Assembly (NCBI GenBank): GCA_010405405.1
Contig: MU004231.1
Span: 4,018,884-4,082,883 of the forward strand
Source: Microthyrium microscopicum
Taxonomy: Eukaryota > Ascomycota > Dothideomycetes > Microthyriales > Microthyriaceae
DNA length: 64,000 nt
Direction of reading: 5' to 3'
A program made the translations under genes and the position numbers. The first letter of the stretch is position 1, and the number at the start of each line of letters is the position of its first letter. A model generated the notes under the pieces. That model did not search any database, was not told the origin of the DNA, and saw only the letters and a program-made list of their open reading frames with translations. Of this stretch, positions 45,727-56,930 are shown piece after piece.

Positions 45727-46374
45727 TTTGGCGGTTTGGATGCTGAGGGGGAGATAGGGTGGTGGTGGGTTGTAGAGTGGGAGTCGGGTTGATATATTGA
45801 TGGATGTTGTGAGGCATAAGGGACTTGAGCTGACGTGAGAGCGCAAGTGGACTAAGGGGAGATTGATTGGACTTTATGGTCTTTGCCTTATTGATTGTTT
45901 TATCTTTAATTCTCTCTGATATAGCTTTCCTACTTCTAATACTTTTAAGGTCGAGGTATTTTGGGTTGACAAGTGAGAATATCATTATCGTTGTGATAAC
46001 TGGCGTCCCAATATCGATCCGGAGCAACATTATTGCTACAATCAGAGAAAGAGTTGCGAGCATGGCAAACATGAACGACCATTTGTTCTAGTTCTTGTTT
46101 GTATATATTCACTAAGTTATCAAAGGTCTTAAGAATTTTCAATGTCGGTTCATTTCGCTCAGCTCCCAGTCAATAACGAAACAGTCGGAGTTGAAAATGC
46201 TCGGACTAATCTGAATGATGTCAACTTTTTTTGCAGAATCACATATAGTACTGAAAAGGATTGATTCAATTTCTACTTGGACCAAAATCTCTAGAAAACA
46301 AACTTGTTCGATTGGTTTCTAGTTCTTGAAAATGCTGTGACAAATCAAAACTGGCTAGGGTGGACTTGACTTTC
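45727..46374. other. Intergenic, left flank of the LTR element
   Basis: Upstream region of the broken gene, up to the target site CTTTC (46370-46374) of the LTR element. No gene recognised. Confidence 0.5.
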
Positions 46375-46530
46375 TGTTAGAAGGTGATCCAAAAGGGACA
46401 AAGCTTTTGGGTGGTAGAAGATAATATTAAAACGGACAAGTCCTTAATCTAAGGGTGTGGGAAGTATTTATTACTTATATAATTTGTACTAAGTTAGTAT
46501 TTTCTTAATATTAAATAATATTTTTTAATA
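46375..46530 (-). repeat. LTR, left copy (3' LTR of minus-strand element)
   Basis: 156 bp, colinear with 56545-56700. By eye about 23 differences, all transitions, as RIP would give. This copy is the more AT-rich one. Confidence 0.85.
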
Positions 46531-49500
46531 CTCCTTTTTAATAGTAGTACAAATTAATATTATAAATCTTATTTATATTATCTAAAATACTTATTTCTTT
46601 TAAATTATATAATACTAGTATATAACGTAAGTTAGTACTTAGCTAGAGGTTATAAGGCTACGCACTACTATATTAAGGTAAATTAATATAAATAACTTTT
46701 ATATTAACTAAAAAATTATATATTGTTTAGATATAGTTTTTTAGATCTACTAGATTAAGCTCTTTAATATAGGTTTTAAACTTTATAGAAATTAAAGACT
46801 TTATAAGACTATTTATAATATTCTTTATTATTAGAACCTAGTCTATATTAATTTTACCTTTAGTAACTTAATTATAAATAAAGTAATACTAGATATTAAT
46901 ATATTTTAACCTTTTATAAAATATTAGGTTCTTAGCTAATGCTAGTATTCTAAGGTTATTATTATATATAGTAATAGCTAAAGGGCCTTTGTATTAAAAG
47001 TTAGATATTAATTCTTTAAGCTAGATTACTTCTTTAGTAGCTTTAGATTTAGTAATATATTTAGCTTTATAGCTAAATAAGGCTATTATTACTTATTATT
47101 TAGAGCTTTAGCTAATTATTATACTACTAATCTTAAAAATATAGCTACTTATTAATTTTTTTTTCTCTTTATTTCTTTCTTAATTAAAGTTAGTTTAGTT
47201 TATTAGATTTATTTCTATATTACTATTTTTAATAATTAGTCTAAGGTTCTTAGTTTTATAAAGATATTTAAGAAGATATTAAGTAGCTATTATATATTTC
47301 TTTACTAGATTTAAGGAGAAATAGTTAAGGATTAATATTAAGTAGTAAAGATTAGGTTTTATTCTAAGTATAAGATATATAACTAAGCTAATAAGAGATT
47401 AGTACTATTTAATATCTTACTCTTTAGCTTTACTAGTATTAGTAATAAGCTTAAGATTATTAAGTATTAGAGTTTTGACCCTTTTATTAATACTATTAAA
47501 TTCAAAGTTATTAAGGATCTTTTAATAGTATATATCTTAAAATATTATAAGTTTTAACCCTCTACTAAGCTTTTTATAAGTAATTTTAATTCTTAAGTAA
47601 TAAGATTTTACTAAGGTTTATTATTTTAAAACGTTTAGTAAGTCTTTTTTTAAAAGACTTAATTACTTTAAGGTTTTTATTAAATATTAAGAAGTTATTA
47701 ATATAGATAGTAATAATGACTTTTATTTTATAATTAATAAAGATATTTTTATTATAAGAATAGGGTTTAAAGCTAAAATTTATAAGTACCTTTTAAAGTA
47801 TAAAGAACTAGATTTAGGAAGCTTGCTTAAGTTTATAAATAGCTTTATTAAGTTTAGCAACTATACCTTTATAGGTATAGTTTAGTAGTAATTCTATATA
47901 AATTATTAGAACGTTTTTTTTTAGGTTTATATTATTATAGAGAAACGTAGTCTTTATATTTATTTAATAAATATATTAGTTATAAAAGATAGCTAGTATA
48001 AAGAGTAGTCTCTAGCTTATTAATTTAACTATAAAGGTAAAGGTTTTAAAGTAATTAATTTTATATACTTACTTAAAGTTATAAACAACCTAGCGTACTT
48101 TATAGTAAATAATATTACTTTTTAAGTTCTATTTAATCTTAAGAACGTATCTACTAGATATAATATAAGTGCCTTTTAGAGAATAAGGAACTATATCTTA
48201 TATATTATTATTTAATAAAGATAAATACTTATCTTTAATAATATCTATTTAGTTATAAATAAAAGAAGATTTAAGTATTTAGATATAGTTCTTTAGTTTA
48301 AGGTTATTTTTATCCTTTTTAAGAAGGTAAAAGTTAGGTAATATTATTATAAGAAAGAGTTTAATAGTTTAATGTTTTTTAGTAATTAAGAGAATCCTAA
48401 TATACTTAGTAATTTCTTTAAGAGTATTTTCTTTAGGCTTAGATTTAATAATAGCTTATATTTCTTTTCGTTCTTTATAAATTATTAGAATTTTATTAAT
48501 ATTATCTTTCTTAGTAACTTATTCCTTAGTAAGTAGTAATAAGAGATTAGATTTTTCTTTATTAGTAAATATAGTAAGATAAGTGTCTTTATTATTATTT
48601 AGAATATAATAAATAAGTTTTTTATTAGGTTTAACTATATTATCGTAGAGTAAAGTTAAAGACTAATTTAGTTTATTATATTTTTTCTTAAAGTAGTTAG
48701 TAGCTTTATATTTATAAGAGTACTCTCTTTTAATAGAGGTAAGAGTAATATATAAATAAAGACTTATAAAGAGTATAAGATAGTTTATTTAAAGGATATT
48801 AAATATATATAGTAGAAATTCTAATTACTTAGGAAATGTACTTTCTTTAAATTAAAGATTTTTAATAATTTTAATAAAGCCTTTGCTAGTGTTTTAGACG
48901 TAATATTAGTTAGTTTTAATTTAAATATTATAGCTAGATTTGTTATAATTAAGAAGGAAATATTATTCTATTCTAGTATTAGTTTTCTTTAGGCTATCTT
49001 ATAGGATAGGTTTCTAGTAGAGAGAGTTAATAATGTAGAGATTTAAGAGATTAGATTCTTTATTATAGAATATTTTATATAAAGATTTGTTTTAGTAATT
49101 AATTAAGGTAGTTATAATATTAATAAGAATAATAGTAATACTAATTATTTTAGTATATAGTATTAGTAAGAAGTATATATAGTATAGTAGTAAATAAGCT
49201 ATATTACTTAGAGATTATATACTTTTTTTAAAAACTTTATTTTATTTAGAATTATATAGAGTTATTAGTTTAGGGTAGATTTTATTCTTTTATTATATAG
49301 TATCTATATTAATATTTTAGAATTCTAAATTATTATTATATTTTATAACTTTAACTTTATTACTATATTTATTCTTAATTTAGAGTCGCTATTCTTTAAT
49401 AAGAAATAGTACATTAATCTTTAATAATATAAAGTAGATCTAACGAAATTAAGAATAATTATTTATAATAATAAGCTAGTATAGCTTTTACCCTTTTTTA

Positions 49501-50461
49501 TTATTTATAGTAGTAGGGTTAGTAAAGAGACTACTAAGATCTATATATACTCTTTTAAGCTTTTAAGTTATTTAATTTTATATAGCTTTTAAGTAATTAA
49601 ACTAGATTTTTATTACTTTATTATAAGTAGTATAGTTAGTAATATAAAAGTAAGTAAACTTAATTTAGCTCTTTAAAGTACGTTATAGATATATCTTATT
49701 TATATATCTAAGGCGTTAATACTAGAGTTTAGTAGATATTATATATTCTTTAAACGTAAAGATAGTATTTATTAGTAGTTATATTTAGTAAGTATAGAGT
49801 TATATTTACTATTTAAATATAAGGATAGTATTTAAAGAAAGCTATTAAAGAGTATAAAGTTATTAAGTAAAATAACTTACTACGCTAATAAGGGAACTAT
49901 TATTATAAAGAATTTAAGCTTTAGAGTTCTTAAACTAGACTTTAACATTAGTTTTAAGATTATTAGAAGTTAGGAGGAGCTTCTTTAGTAAGATAATATT
50001 AAAAAATAAGCTAGGGATATAGGCTATGTTATTAAGAATAAATATTTTATAGACTTTATTATTATTTAAGTTAGTAATATAGGTAGAAATATAAGTAGTT
50101 TCTATTCCTTTAATATTTACGTTTCTACTAAGTCTTAATAGTTATTAATTATTACTATTATTAATAAAGCTTTTAGTAAAATAGCTTAGATTATTAGTAA
50201 TATAGTATAAAGTACTAGAGTTTAGAACTTAACCTTTCCTAGCTTTTATAACGAAGACTAAGTTACTTTAGAATTTTTTATTTATATTAATAGTAAAAAA
50301 GGTAATTAGGTTAATAATATTAACTATAATTTAGACTTAGTTATATTTATAGTTATTATTACTAAAGTTGTTTTTAATATAATTAACTTAATCTTAGTTA
50401 TAGAAATTATACTTATTAATATTAAGTTAATTTTATAAGGATTAATAAGAGCAGCTTTATA

Positions 50462-51333
50462 CATTGTGAAAAAATTATTATGCATCGCAAATTGGACTAC
50501 GTATCCGACGGTAAAACGGTTATTTTAGTTATTTTAAAGACATTAGATGCGCATTGGATGCATATTGGATAAAGTACTAAATAATTCTAGTTATTCTAGT
50601 TATTTTAAACTCATCGTAGTTATTTTAAATATATTGAAAATCTATCGTAGTTATTTAAAATCTATCGTAGTTATTTGAAATCCATCGTGGTTATTGGAGA
50701 CATTGGAACCTGAATAGGCAACTTTAAGGTATAATTTTTATATTACTACTTAGAGCTCGTTAAGCTCTATCTAGATATAGTTTTATTATTTTTATATCTT
50801 AAGTGTTAATTGAGTTATAATTATTTAAACATAAATATATTTTTTATTTTTCGATTTCTATTAATAACTTTTTAAATATAATTGTTATAATAATAAAAAG
50901 TACACCATTAGATAGCCCTCGTTTAGATAAGTAAGTTATAATTTAAATTAGAGTTTATTATCTAGTCGTTACTAGTTGTAGCCAAAAAACGTTTTTTGGA
51001 CTTTAATATTCCTTTTTTTATTTATTTCTAGAATCCTTGCTAACTCTTTGGTTTTTCTACCGTTTTAATTCTAGATTAAACTAAAGGTACTAAACCCTAT
51101 ATTTTAGCCTATAGTAAGGTCATTAGGCGCCTAGCTAGATTAGTTAATTAGTTATTGGACTTACGACTTTACTAAAATCCTTTTATCTATTTTATTAATC
51201 TTAAGGTTATCGTAGGTTATTGTAGTTATTTTAAAGTTATTTCTAACTCCTTAGATAAGGCACTACGTATAATAGTCATAGGTATTATTAGTACTATCAG
51301 ATAACTCAAATTAATGATAATCTTTTCACGATG
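50462..51333. mobile_element. Nested DNA element with inverted repeats flanked by TA (Tc1/mariner-like MITE)
   Basis: The ends, CATTGTGAAAAAATTATTA and (reverse complement of the right end) CATCGTGAAAAGATTATCA, match at 16 of 19 positions; the mismatches are all transitions. Each end abuts a TA dinucleotide (50460-50461 and 51334-51335), the Tc1/mariner target. At 872 bp, with no open frame and only about half of it heavily AT-rich, it fits a non-autonomous element inserted in the Copia copy. Superfamily is inference from the TA and size. Confidence 0.55.
50610..50700 (+). repeat. Short tandem repeat, unit about 20 bp
   Basis: Units TCTATCGTAGTTATTTAAAA (50641), its near-copy at 50661 and a more diverged one at 50681 are in tandem. 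A further unit at 50610 is separated by 11 bases. Lies inside the nested DNA element. Confidence 0.7.
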
Positions 51334-53539
51334 TAATTAAGAGAGATAGCTTTAGTAAGACTAACTTTATTATTATTAAGAATAGTATTATTAAGGGCGT
51401 TCTTAAGTTCTACCCTTAATTTAAATGCCTTAGTCTTTTTTAGCCTACTAGTTAATTAGGCGTTTAGTAGCTTCTTTAATATATTTATTAAGCTTCTCTT
51501 AAGACTTAAAGAAAGTTTTTTTAAGTTTAGTATTAGTTAAGTAATTAAAGTAGCTATTAGGTTTATTAAAGTTACTATATTGCGAATAGGAATAATTTAG
51601 ATATAATTAGGTTTTAATACTAGAGTTAATAGTAGTAAGAGCTATATTATTATTCTTTTTTAATTCTTCTTTAGTATAGATAATAACTACTAGCTTATTA
51701 AATTCTATAAGGGGTTTATTAGTAGCTAGATCTTAGTATTTAGCGTTTTAGTATAGAGGAGTAATAATATTATCTATAATAGCTAGGATATTCTTAAGAA
51801 ACTAGATATTTTAGAAATATTTAGGAATTTCTTAGCTTTTTTTAAGCTTATAAAACTTAGTCCTAATCTTAAGAATAGAGTTTTAAAGGGTAGTAGCGAA
51901 TCTATTTAGTCGTTATATATAGTCTTAAAGTCTATTAAAGACTTTCTCAATATAAAAGAAGCTAGCTAACTTATATTAAATTAAGAGGATAGATAAAGCT
52001 TTAGACGTATTAAACTTATTAATAATTATTACTTTTATATTTAGTTTTATAGTAGTATAGAGAATTTTATAGGCTTTAGTATTATAATAGTACTAATATA
52101 CTTAATTATTAAGAGTCTTAGTAAGAAGATATACTTTAGCTTTAGAGAAGAAGGTTTATAGTTTATTAGATTTTATTAAGTATTTAAACTATAGTCTTTA
52201 GAGTCTTTAGTTAGCTAAGCCTTAAAAACGCTTATAGTTAGTAGAGTAGATAGCTTTAAGGATATTGTTTAGTTTAGACTTTAACTTATTAGTAGATAGC
52301 TCTTTTAAGAAATTAGAGAGTATAATTAGGTTAAATAACATTTTAAATAGAGAGGTAGTAGTAGCTATAGTAGCAAGAGCTACTTTTTCTATAAAAGACT
52401 TTTTTATAATTCTATTTATTAGTAGGTTATATATTTTAGTAAGAGATTTACGAAAAGTTTCTATTTATAAGGTAATAACTTATTAAATAATTTATTAAGT
52501 AGTAGCGTCTAGTATTAAGGAGTTAGGGTTTATTAGTTATTAAGTTAGGGAAAAAAGAATAAAATACGTAAATTAACGAGTTAAACTAATAATCTAATCT
52601 AATCTAGATCTAATTTATCTAAGAGCCTATTTACTTTTCTACGTAGATTTTTGTAATCCGTATAGAATTATCTAAGCGCTTAGTACAATTATGTAATATT
52701 CTACTACAACCTAATAGATTTAAAGCTTCTAGTATAATTTACGCTAAGCCTAAATTAAGGATCCTACGCGGAAACGTTAAAAATATTATATTATAAGATC
52801 TAATTAGATCTTCTATTCTCTACTATATTCCTTCTTATCTTTAGGAATATTCTTTACCTCTACTACTATCTAATATTACGCGTCGTTATTTCCTCTCTAG
52901 ATAGTATAAATATATAAGTATTAGTAGTAGTAAGTTAGATAGAATGCTTAATATCTTCTTTACTATTTATTACTAATCTTGATCCCTTGAGGTGCACGGA
53001 CTACTTTCCGTTACAACTATAGGTGTTTATTTTTGCAGCGTAATAAAATTACGAGCAATACTACTAGAACTACCCCTAATAATCTAGCTTATAGGCTAGC
53101 TATAGTAAGCTGTTAAGTAGTCTAAGAAGGTATAGAACGGTAATAGAAAGAGCAATATCTTAATTATCTATTTAGTATTAAGTTTCGTTAGAGTTTGTAA
53201 TATTTGTACACGTAATATTCTGCAAATTCTAGTAGTTTGGAGAACTAGAAAGTTTTCTGGCGCTGGATTACCTTATTAGGTTTAGTAGGTCACGTTTTTT
53301 TGCAATAGCCGCGCTTTTTAAAAATGCGCAAGATTCTTAGCAATTAGCTAATATTCTGCGCCATAAAAACCGAACACCCTACTAGAAACCAGATATTTTA
53401 GCGCTAAACGTGATGCCAACGTGATATTCTGCCAGCACCGCAAGAAAAAGTGAACAGGCCCTAAGCCACATCACACCCGTTGACCGGCGTTCTTAACTCA
53501 GCTGCGCTGAAAATCTCGACTCATTCTTTCATACTCATT

Positions 53540-55093
53540 ATGGAAGACACCCGTTTTGAGTCGATTCTCAAGCAACTTCACTGTGCTAAGAAGACGAAGG
53601 TGCAGATATATGATAGTAGGGAACAAACGAACAAGGAAGACTGGTCTGATGATGCCGAGCTCCTGACAAGGCTGAGAGGTGTAGTGAGTTGCCTAATCGA
53701 GCCCGAATCCAACTATAGCACTCTGTAATATTTTGCGTAGTCCTCCTTGGTCAATAACGACTCAATCCATACCCAGCAAAATGCCTCCACGAGCCAAACA
53801 CCACTGTTTGTGATGTAAGTAGCTCGGTCTCCGCTTTTAGTTTCCTAGCTAAGCTCTGCCTAACTGTTCGATTACTAGCTCTACCACTGGCGTGGGAGAT
53901 CCTGATGGCATAAAAAATCCTTTGAATACATCGAGATCATCACTACAAGCTATTATAGACACTTGCAACCTGCCCCGCGAGCTTGTACAGGTTCTAGCGA
54001 TGCGATTGCCCCATGTATCGCATCACTTTCAATATGAACCGGGAAGCTTGGAAGCAAGCGCTATTAGTACGTGTCGTATCTAGAGCTCTAAATCAGTATG
54101 TTAATCATCTACATAGCTATCTTAGCTCGATTACCAAGGAACAGCATTCATATCACCGTTGCTCTTCGAGTGAGACTCCTGGACAATGCATGTGTCTGTT
54201 TGTTGATTACGAAGTCACCTCAGGATTCAGCAGAGCTAATGAAACTGTGCATCCGACGACAACATCAGCTTGCAAAATACCCGTTTCTGTTGCTGTCGTT
54301 CGTCCTAGAGTATCGATTGGCTTCGTACGAATCGTGGCTCGACCGTCTTTGGAGCCGAGTGGACAAGCTAGAGGTTAGCACTGGTATGACAGCATGGCCA
54401 AGAGCAGAAGATTTGGAGCCAAACACCCAAGATTATGGACCGATGCTCCAGGAGCTACATGCCGTCAATGTTGAGCTACTGGTTGCGGAGACAACGATGA
54501 AGTTCGGTCGAACCTTTGTCGATTTTTGTAGAAAGACATTGGAGATCACCAACGAGAGTCGAAAGCGGGTCGGCTTACCAGAAATGCCATCCTCTGAGCG
54601 GCAGAAAATTGAAGTAGCTATTGCGTTCAACGCAAGATTGGCTCAGTTCAGAGATGATAAATTTCGTGAACTGTTGAACAGAGTTCAATCTCAAATCAAC
54701 GTGGTGTGTTCCTAGAACCTGAATGATGTAGTTGGTTTGACGCTTAATACCTCCAGACCTTCAGTCTTGTCACTCAGCAAGACAGCCGAACGAACACACG
54801 AATTGCCGAGTCTGCTGCCAGGGACAATCAAACTATGAAGACAATTACCGTCATTACCTTATTATTTCTGCCCTCAACACTACTAGCAGTGAGTATTCAA
54901 CCTTGATACAAATGCATAATGTGCTCATCTAGGGTAGACCATTTGGAGTAGTGGAATTTTCAAGATGGAACCGGAAAGAAGCTGGAAGATTTTTGTTGGG
55001 ACGTCTGTTGCACTTACAGCTGTTGTATTTGTTGTTTGGATAACGTATCGAGCTTATGTAGCAGGACGACTTCGGCATTCACTAAAGTTCTAA
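53540..55093 (+). pseudogene. CorA-like (Mg2+ transporter-like) gene copy enclosed in the LTR element
   Basis: Five exons with good splice sites (53540-53814, 53879-54066, 54117-54703, 54757-54888, 54938-55093) make a colinear fungal CorA-like protein. It has the helical region LSFVLEYRLASYESWLDRLW, then LHAVNVELLVAETTM, then RVQSQINVTFSLVTQQDSRTN. Two membrane segments follow: MKTITVITLLFLPSTLLA, and FVGTSVALTAVVFVVWITYR near the C-terminus. The classical GMN loop motif of CorA is absent (TIWSSGIF instead), so ion transport is doubtful. The first exon has two in-frame stops (53726 and 53738), both where C-to-T change of a Gln codon would give them. The remaining exons are open. The N-terminus may be missing compared with family length. 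Base composition is normal, unlike the RIP-decayed DNA on both sides. Confidence 0.75.
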
Positions 55094-55490
55094 AGTTTAT
55101 GATATATGTCTAGCATCGACATAGAGTCTTTTCCTAATTTCCAGAATCGTTTTCTAATGTGTAATAATTTTAAATTAGTCATTTCGTGGCTTTCATATAA
55201 AGGATTTGACAAAGTGATTGTGCAGTTAGATGTAGCTGATCTAGAGGACGTAATTTGGTACTAGATCTCTTGGATCCCTAAGCAGGATGTGTTCACGATC
55301 TCTTGACAATAGGCGCCATCTTAGGTAGCAGTGGCAATATGATGGTGCAGGTTGTTGCAGTGAGAGGGCCCTCGATAAGGAGAGATGGGACCGCCTTTAG
55401 TTGATGGACCACGTGTTGAAAGATCGGAGGAGCAGCGGCTTTAAAACTGGTGGCTAAGACTAGCTGCAAGGGAGTCTTGCTCAAAGCTAG
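55094..55490. other. Non-AT-rich flank of the CorA-like copy
   Basis: About 400 bases of mixed composition after the CorA-like stop. They end abruptly near 55490, where AT-rich LTR-element DNA resumes. A minus-strand frame of 63 codons here is not convincing. Confidence 0.45.
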
Positions 55491-56544
55491 GATAAAAAGG
55501 CTATATAGATTAACTAATATGTATAGAGCGCCTATCTAATATACTACGTCTATACGCAAAGTTTAGTAGATATACTAAGCTTAGCTAATATAAGCTATTA
55601 TAGAAAGGAATAATAAGTAATAGTAAATACTAAATAAGAAGTATTAACTAAGATATATAATAAGAAATATTATTATTCTACTTCTTATAAATAAATTATT
55701 AATATTTATTTACTAGTTATAAACTAATCTTAAACTTAATTTATTAAAAGCGCTATAGAGTAGCCTATAATATAACTAAGTACTTATATTAAGTTTCTAA
55801 TTAAGCTAAGAGACAAGTAGTTTAGTACTTTATTGCCTAAAAATCCTTAGTCTTAAAACTATAAAAGGCTAGCTTAAAATAACTAGCTTAATCTATTAGT
55901 AAGTTATCTACTTTACTACTAGTATTTTACTAGTTTATAATTAGTATTTAAGTTATAATAAACTAATTCTTATATAGACTATACTTATTAAGCTAATTCT
56001 TATAGTAGATAACTTAATTATAATATATATAACTTAGGAACCTATTTTATACTATTTATTTATTTATCTAAATAGTTATATATATATTTATAATATAAGA
56101 GAAAAATAGTAAATTCTAAAGTTTATTATAGATAATATATATATACTATATTAATTATATATTAAAACTAATTCTAAAATAATTTTATCTTTTTACTTTA
56201 TTTAAGAAGTAAAACTAGTTAAATAGTAGTAATATAACTTTCTTATAAAGTAATTAGTTAGTATTATTTTATAATAGGACTTAGAACTTAGTAGTTTTAC
56301 TATAGCTTTAGTTGCTCTTAGTAATTAATCTTTAGTTATAACTACTTTAGTAAGTAGTTAAACTACTTTTAGAAGATAGTAGAGCATTATAGCTTACTAA
56401 GGTAAATTAATGCTTACTATTATAAGGTAAATAAATAGTAATAATGCTACTATTTATTAATAGTATTGTTATAGAGGTTTATTTAGTAGAAAGAGAATAA
56501 AGCTATAAGGAGAGTAGTAGTAAGTATACTTTAGGCTTATAATT

Positions 56545-56700
56545 TGTTAGAAGGTGATCTAAAAGGGACAAAGCTTTTGGGTAGTAGAAGATAATATTAA
56601 AATGGATAAGTTCTTAATTTAAGGGTGTAGGAAGTATCTACTACTTATACAATTTGTGCTGAGTCAGTATTCCTTTGATGTTGAATAATATCTTCCAACA
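56545..56700 (-). repeat. LTR, right copy (5' LTR of minus-strand element)
   Basis: Ends TTCCAACA at 56700, followed by CTTTC. Less decayed than the left copy. It lies only 231 bp before the start codon of the next gene and so may contribute to its promoter. Confidence 0.85.
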
Positions 56701-56930
56701 CTTTCTTGAAAACTAACACCACTAAGCTTCCGTTTACATTCAATTCCTGTCGAATCTCATCAAACACTTCTTCTCTCCGGTAACTCACGTGTTGGTAACA
56801 ATCTCCAGCTAAATCGTGCGGTTTATGGCTCACTAGGGTCCTCCTCGTGGAAGACTGCGGTAGAGGCAACATACAGGGCGTTTGCGCTTAAGCGGTCGAA
56901 GCGTTATCAACATTACTAAAGCTCGCAGAG

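Follow-up and report, generated by a model that had tools for sequence, protein, structure and literature searches.

How an apparently intact, intron-bearing gene of host type comes to lie in antisense between the long terminal repeats (LTRs) of a dead Copia retrotransposon is the question raised by a locus in a 64-kb window of the Microthyrium microscopicum genome (the window being the whole stretch of DNA that was analysed, C2:4018884-4082883 within a 36.9-Mb, 20-contig genome). An earlier note on this DNA had proposed that a single 10.3-kb Copia insertion encloses an antisense, five-exon CorA-like gene copy in an island of normal base composition, either captured by the retroelement or inserted into it later. 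We find that the gene-bearing DNA, whether a substitution or an island, very probably belongs to one single insertion, and we tentatively favor its capture before that insertion took place.

Results

One Copia insertion with a substituted interior

The Ty1/copia insertion spans 46375-56700 on the minus strand (~10.3 kb) and has paired LTRs and a 5-bp target-site duplication (TSD), a flank identity expected by chance with a probability of 0.001 at the local base composition. A genome search with the LTR returned seven matches, both window LTRs counted, and together with the second LTR of the C15 copy, which was found by comparison, these define four paired-LTR elements: the window copy, L008 (on C14), L009 (on C1) and the C15 copy (~449555-456307), with perfect 5-bp TSDs of CTTTC, CTATT, TGTTG and CACAC, respectively. 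The two window LTRs align without gaps and differ by 23 transitions and 0 transversions, which to judge by their kind is typical of repeat-induced point mutation (RIP). Both carry a single-base insertion that is absent in 6/6 sibling LTRs, as well as a second extra base that is absent in the four LTRs of L008 and L009 and present in both C15 LTRs. Because of the shared private base and the TSD we regard the window LTRs as mates of one insertion, and on the private bases common to both LTRs, along with the TSD, we reject a composite of two different copies. The single insertion of the earlier note is thereby upheld, as it also is by three siblings of the same architecture.

The assignment to Copia also stands, as a match to the copia-type reverse transcriptase, RVT_2 (PF07727), lies at 47598-48176 (minus strand) and scores 90.6 bits (cut-off 31.6). 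Nine stops (4 TAG and 5 TAA) interrupt this match, and the element is accordingly a dead Ty1/copia member in minus orientation; RVT_2 is also present in the siblings in the corresponding orientation. With these stops, and with the counterpart of L008 5398-6494 missing, the copy lacks complete gag-pol coding capacity, which is a criterion for autonomy and not for Ty1/copia membership. Measured per 500 bp, G+C amounts to 17-28% at 46.5-53.0 and 55.5-56.5 kb, as compared with 35-57% outside the element.

Window positions 46375-50461 and 51334-52546 align to contiguous L008/L009 sequence at 86-88% identity, as likewise does ~56183-56702. The three siblings measure 6.75-6.92 kb, and the window copy is longer because it contains an 874-bp DNA transposon and 3,637 bp of unique DNA; ~0.87 kb of the extra length is thus a separate transposon. 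The unique DNA (52546-56182) occupies the place of ~1,097 bp in L008 (5398-6494) and L009, and since this sibling sequence is missing we regard it as a substitution rather than a plain insertion. When the sibling segment L008 5398-6494 was searched against the genome, both of the two matches were L008 and L009 themselves, the distant C15 copy not being picked up. The same search with 52546-56182 found no homolog, in a procedure that passes over very common words, and no second copy of the gene-bearing composite was found in this genome. Matches of 55450-56190 at four other loci were rejected, as two of them align, at several offsets, with numerous AT-rich stretches that are unrelated, and the alignments of the remaining two are only short and of low identity. 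At the two ends of the unique segment, a search for terminal inverted repeats, direct repeats or a TSD brought up only AT-rich, chance-like matches, from which no second transposon type could be named.

In the sibling segment, L008 5398-6097 has strong 3-base periodicity and L008 6098-6447 has none, and from translation and periodicity we read the broken translation of the former as the gag zinc-knuckle to protease part; a Pfam search with 467 residues from the siblings' gag side (X at stops) returned 0 families. Within the family divergence is fastest on the gag side, with no blastn alignment between L008 5398-6494 and C15:454210-455782, and the L008 and C15 gag regions align only weakly, in a comparison that tolerates transitions.

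The remaining Copia sequence is of mixed ancestry. Over 5,485 ungapped sites 38 transversions set the window copy apart from both L008 and L009, and 12 further ones differ from only one of the two. Just one of the 38 falls within 47540-50169 (0/20,000 random placements gave an equally long poor span), and 12 lie in 52099-52545, beside the left breakpoint, where 12/447 transverted sites represent an excess (binomial P 9e-5; 10/437 sites and P 0.001 without the doubtfully aligned last 10 bp). Other clusters are distant from this breakpoint, at 46.56-47.54 and 50.17-50.36 kb. Because the transversions are so strongly clustered we consider the window copy a recombinant, and recombination in reverse transcription (template switching) or gene conversion would yield such a mosaic.

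RIP in the element and in the edges of the unique segment

RIP was recognized by loss of CpA/TpG together with transition-dominated differences between copies, and both were found. The element at 46531-50459 has a CpA+TpG count of 25 vs 311 for ApC+GpT, and the core of the unique segment (53481-55490) is normal, with 281 vs 232. The edges of this segment are depleted as well, at 5 vs 36 on the left (52546-52980), with CpG retained at 27.6 per kb, and at 4 vs 55 on the right (55490-56182), with an element-like CpG of 5.8 per kb. By RIP index the normal-composition core extends over ~53.3-55.49 kb, and there is a small unmutated patch, a CpA/TpG cluster, at 52980-53056. The normal composition claimed for 53.0-55.5 kb accordingly holds for the core and only in part for 52981-53300. 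In the outer flanks of the four copies 8/8 of the nearest windows (100 or 300 bp, some of which include LTR) are unmutated, and no leakage of RIP into them was seen. Mutated edges, unmutated outer flanks and a spared gene core together suggest that by the time of RIP the element already contained the unique segment.

As an observation apart, the window LTRs are far less RIP-mutated (CpA+TpG/ApC+GpT 10/16 and 16/17) than the interior (25/311).

An apparently intact CorA-like gene without an evident parent

On the inferred model the CorA-like gene appears to be intact. It has an open frame with 5/5 introns of the GT..AG type and 49-64 bp long (splice sites inferred from sequence), and it lies on the plus strand, antisense to the Copia element. 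The antisense orientation, the introns and the CorA assignment given earlier are therefore retained, and the exon count becomes six. The first intron is inferred from its GT..AG ends and would remove two in-frame stops (TAA inside, TAG at its end); if left unspliced, the gene would be broken there. The protein matches PF01544 (CorA) over residues 307-412 with E 1e-10, and has two hydrophobic stretches at its C-terminus (~359-379 and 390-417), besides a weaker stretch at ~148-166. In the CorA family a GMN motif follows the first membrane helix. No GMN is present in the 426 residues, and for this reason we file the protein only as CorA-like by domain match and claim no Mg2+ transport.

A host-type gene is thus situated between the mate LTRs of one insertion. 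That it is a copy, as had been assumed, found no support, since neither DNA nor protein searches of the assembly made a parent or close paralog evident. At the DNA level there was no match elsewhere, and of the eight protein matches six are the gene itself. The best of the others, C8:866027-866284, has 36% identity over 83 residues (29% over 103 in another comparison), and C8:255262-255453 has 31% over 61 residues (E 0.008). A search of the genome with the CorA family gave 16 matches, 14 of them above the cut-off, in a list that is incomplete, as the intron-split window gene is missing from it. No match to viral contigs was found with the protein. Because no donor gene was identified elsewhere in the assembly, we file this as a captured gene provisionally.

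Other features of the locus

The coordinates are collected in Table 1. A query with the 874-bp transposon produced 25 genome matches including the window copy, 8/25 covering at least 99% of its length, and RIP depth varies among the copies (CpA+TpG/ApC+GpT 50/80 in L023 vs 14/79 in L027). Three copies or pieces of this family lie inside 5 kb at C3:2838186-2842928. When the empty site is rejoined (left flank to 46374, right flank from 56706), a 96-residue open frame crosses it on the minus strand, for which Pfam gave no convincing match and which may be due to chance or be a disrupted gene.

Table 1. Features of the gene-bearing Copia locus (window positions)
Feature	Coordinates	Strand
Target-site duplication CTTTC, left	46370..46374	
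LTR, 156 bp, 3' LTR in element orientation	46375..46530	minus
Copia internal region, RIP-degraded, 87-88% identity to L008 and L009	46531..50459	minus
DNA transposon, 874 bp, inverted ends CATTGTGAAAA/TTTTCACGATG, at TA	50460..51333	
Copia internal region, RIP-degraded; similarity to L008/L009 stops abruptly at the substitution	51334..52545	minus
Unique segment, left edge: CpA/TpG-depleted, CpG kept, no homolog found	52546..52980	
Transition zone, unique, partly RIP-like	52981..53300	
CorA-like gene, six inferred exons, 426 codons	53540..55093	plus
CorA-like gene, inferred exons	53540-53683, 53741-53814, 53879-54066, 54117-54703, 54757-54888, 54938-55093	
Unique segment, right edge: RIP-mutated as heavily as the element, no homolog found	55490..56182	
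Copia leader and perhaps start of gag; conserved in siblings	56183..56544	minus
LTR, 156 bp, 5' LTR in element orientation	56545..56700	minus
Target-site duplication CTTTC, right	56701..56705	

Discussion

Origin of the gene-bearing segment

The reading we prefer, and hold tentatively, is that template switching onto an antisense RNA captured the gene, and that integration followed. A Copia element of a distinct sublineage would have taken up 3.6 kb of host-type DNA with a complete antisense CorA-family gene, and given up in exchange ~1.1 kb of its gag-pol side, before RIP. Reverse transcription would have switched to a host RNA made by antisense read-through; the introns cannot be spliced out of such an RNA and would be retained. 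A gag-defective copy would result, mobilized by the proteins of intact siblings and deposited here, after which RIP would have destroyed the element and adjacent DNA and spared the gene core as single-copy and perhaps under selection; the 874-bp DNA transposon presumably landed in the element later. Stranded in a dead element, the CorA-like gene is probably an ordinary host gene today. Mate LTRs with private bases, the TSD, sibling structures with TSDs of their own and the sharp substitution all argue for this reading, together with the RIP-mutated unique edges beside clean outer flanks, the mosaic element and the antisense gene with its five GT..AG introns. Moreover the LTRs, the leader and part of pol were kept, as expected of a transduced, trans-mobilized element.

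Several points weigh against capture before integration. The gene is in one copy only, and its co-mobilization is therefore hypothetical. No donor gene was found in the assembly, although copying routes should leave one, and this weighs on every such route; loss of the donor by segregation, or RIP of a duplicate, are guesses. Genes transduced by retrotransposons are usually sense-oriented, according to passages of a review (PMC7264820). The right boundary at 55490 is sharp and the 52980-53056 patch is unmutated, and the RIP of the edges might instead stem from a lost repeat or a very divergent gag. RIP leakage into DNA between repeated arms is possible: in repeat-linker-repeat constructs of Neurospora the linker is mutated at a rate that drops to almost zero when DIM-2 is absent (PMC11969663), and for Cladosporium fulvum leakage into single-copy DNA is reported (PMC9453070). 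Because of the sharp boundary and the patch, a lost repeat or divergent gag fits somewhat better than a smooth leak. We consider it quite improbable that a gene-carrying Copia sublineage was once multi-copy, such that the RIP-mutated and now unique edges are traces of a former repeat and the vehicle relocated or brought in the gene; on the same improbable account an intron-bearing gene was transduced in antisense, RIP erased the vehicle and selection kept the gene.

Of the two origins offered earlier, a clean later insert without loss is contradicted by the missing ~1,097 bp and the RIP-mutated edges, and a single copy in one genome does not separate pre-integration capture, later replacement and two-step nesting from one another. 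Replacement after integration, in which the element arrived at CTTTC first, suffered an internal double-strand break, lost ~1.1 kb and was repaired with 3.6 kb of host DNA before RIP, is a possible if doubtful account. It would explain a gene in one copy only and abrupt breakpoints without clear terminal repeats, it makes trans-mobilization unnecessary, and error-prone repair could leave a transversion excess such as that beside the left breakpoint; the clusters far from the breakpoint indicate that this local excess may be mosaicism instead, and the absence of a donor locus from our searches counts against replacement too.

Two-step nesting strikes us as unlikely. Here 52546-52980 and 55490-56182 would belong to an unrelated or very divergent element stretch into which a ~2.5-kb CorA island was inserted after RIP, in keeping with the sharp composition step at 55490, the CpA/TpG cluster at 52980-53056 and a total length of the mutated edges (435 + 693, ~1.1 kb) that comes close to the 1,097 bp present in the siblings. 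Divergence in the family is also greatest on the gag side, where blastn does not align L008 with C15. Yet the island has no clear TSD or inverted ends, and a Pfam search of 6/12 edge frames yielded nothing significant (best E 0.22, below its cut-off). Compared with the gag regions of L008, L009 and C15 the edges scored at shuffle level, in a test of low power for short pieces: L008 vs C15 gag reached 193 against a shuffle of 50.6+-5.2, and a 447-bp stretch of true element scored only 65 vs C15, where the shuffle maximum was 64. Nor do the edges have strong 3-base periodicity (P 0.56 left, 0.08 right, 0.04 for the half 55837-56182), again a weak test, as true element at 52111-52545 (P 0.14) is also without it, like L008 6098-6447. 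An assembly artefact that joined two Copia copies around an unrelated gene is very improbable. RIP-degraded repeats are generally prone to misassembly, but private bases and a TSD common to both LTRs are unexpected from joining different copies, and the segment sits inside a 4.5-Mb contig.

If capture did precede integration, a complete host gene, introns included, can be moved in antisense by an LTR retrotransposon of a fungus, and RIP, a mutator of genome defence, can strip the vehicle and leave the cargo. Unique RIP-spared gene islands in RIP-degraded elements with mate LTRs would be a testable footprint for further cases.

Comparison with known systems

In retroviral oncogene transduction a host gene replaces gag-pol and the cis-acting ends are kept, the gene usually being sense-oriented and spliced. 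Our locus is similar in that gag-pol sequence is substituted and cis-acting ends are kept, any transmission being hypothetical here. Genes captured by LTR elements are described from plants, including Bs1, in maize, rice and sorghum (in passages of PMC13317346, PMC3726574 and PMC7264820), and as in those cases we observe a host gene between the LTRs of one element in one or few copies. Unlike them, as far as these passages describe them, the element is a fungal Copia, the gene is complete by the inferred model, retains its introns and is antisense, and no donor was found. Another known case is brtn of the Boty elements of Botrytis cinerea, an antisense gene cited in PMC7264820, which like ours is an additional antisense gene within a fungal LTR element. 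Antisense open reading frames of this kind are placed by a passage of that review between pol and the 3' LTR and in most copies of the family, whereas the gene here lies on the 5' side in place of element sequence, and a single copy carries it. Transduplication of histone H3 in Pyrenophora tritici-repentis, as outlined in part of PMC3538342, similarly has a fungal transposable element capturing host gene sequence, although by DNA transposons with terminal inverted repeats rather than by an LTR element. Passages on chimeric or insertion-bearing fungal Copia copies deal with microsatellites, with other transposable elements and with mixed element domains, and mention no intact host gene. Our literature search, which covered titles, the starts of abstracts and some passages, returned no gene capture by a fungal Copia element, and we do not claim its absence from print. 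Gene capture by LTR elements is known, mainly from plants, and the finding of an intact antisense gene with introns makes the fungal Copia case an unusual variant of it.

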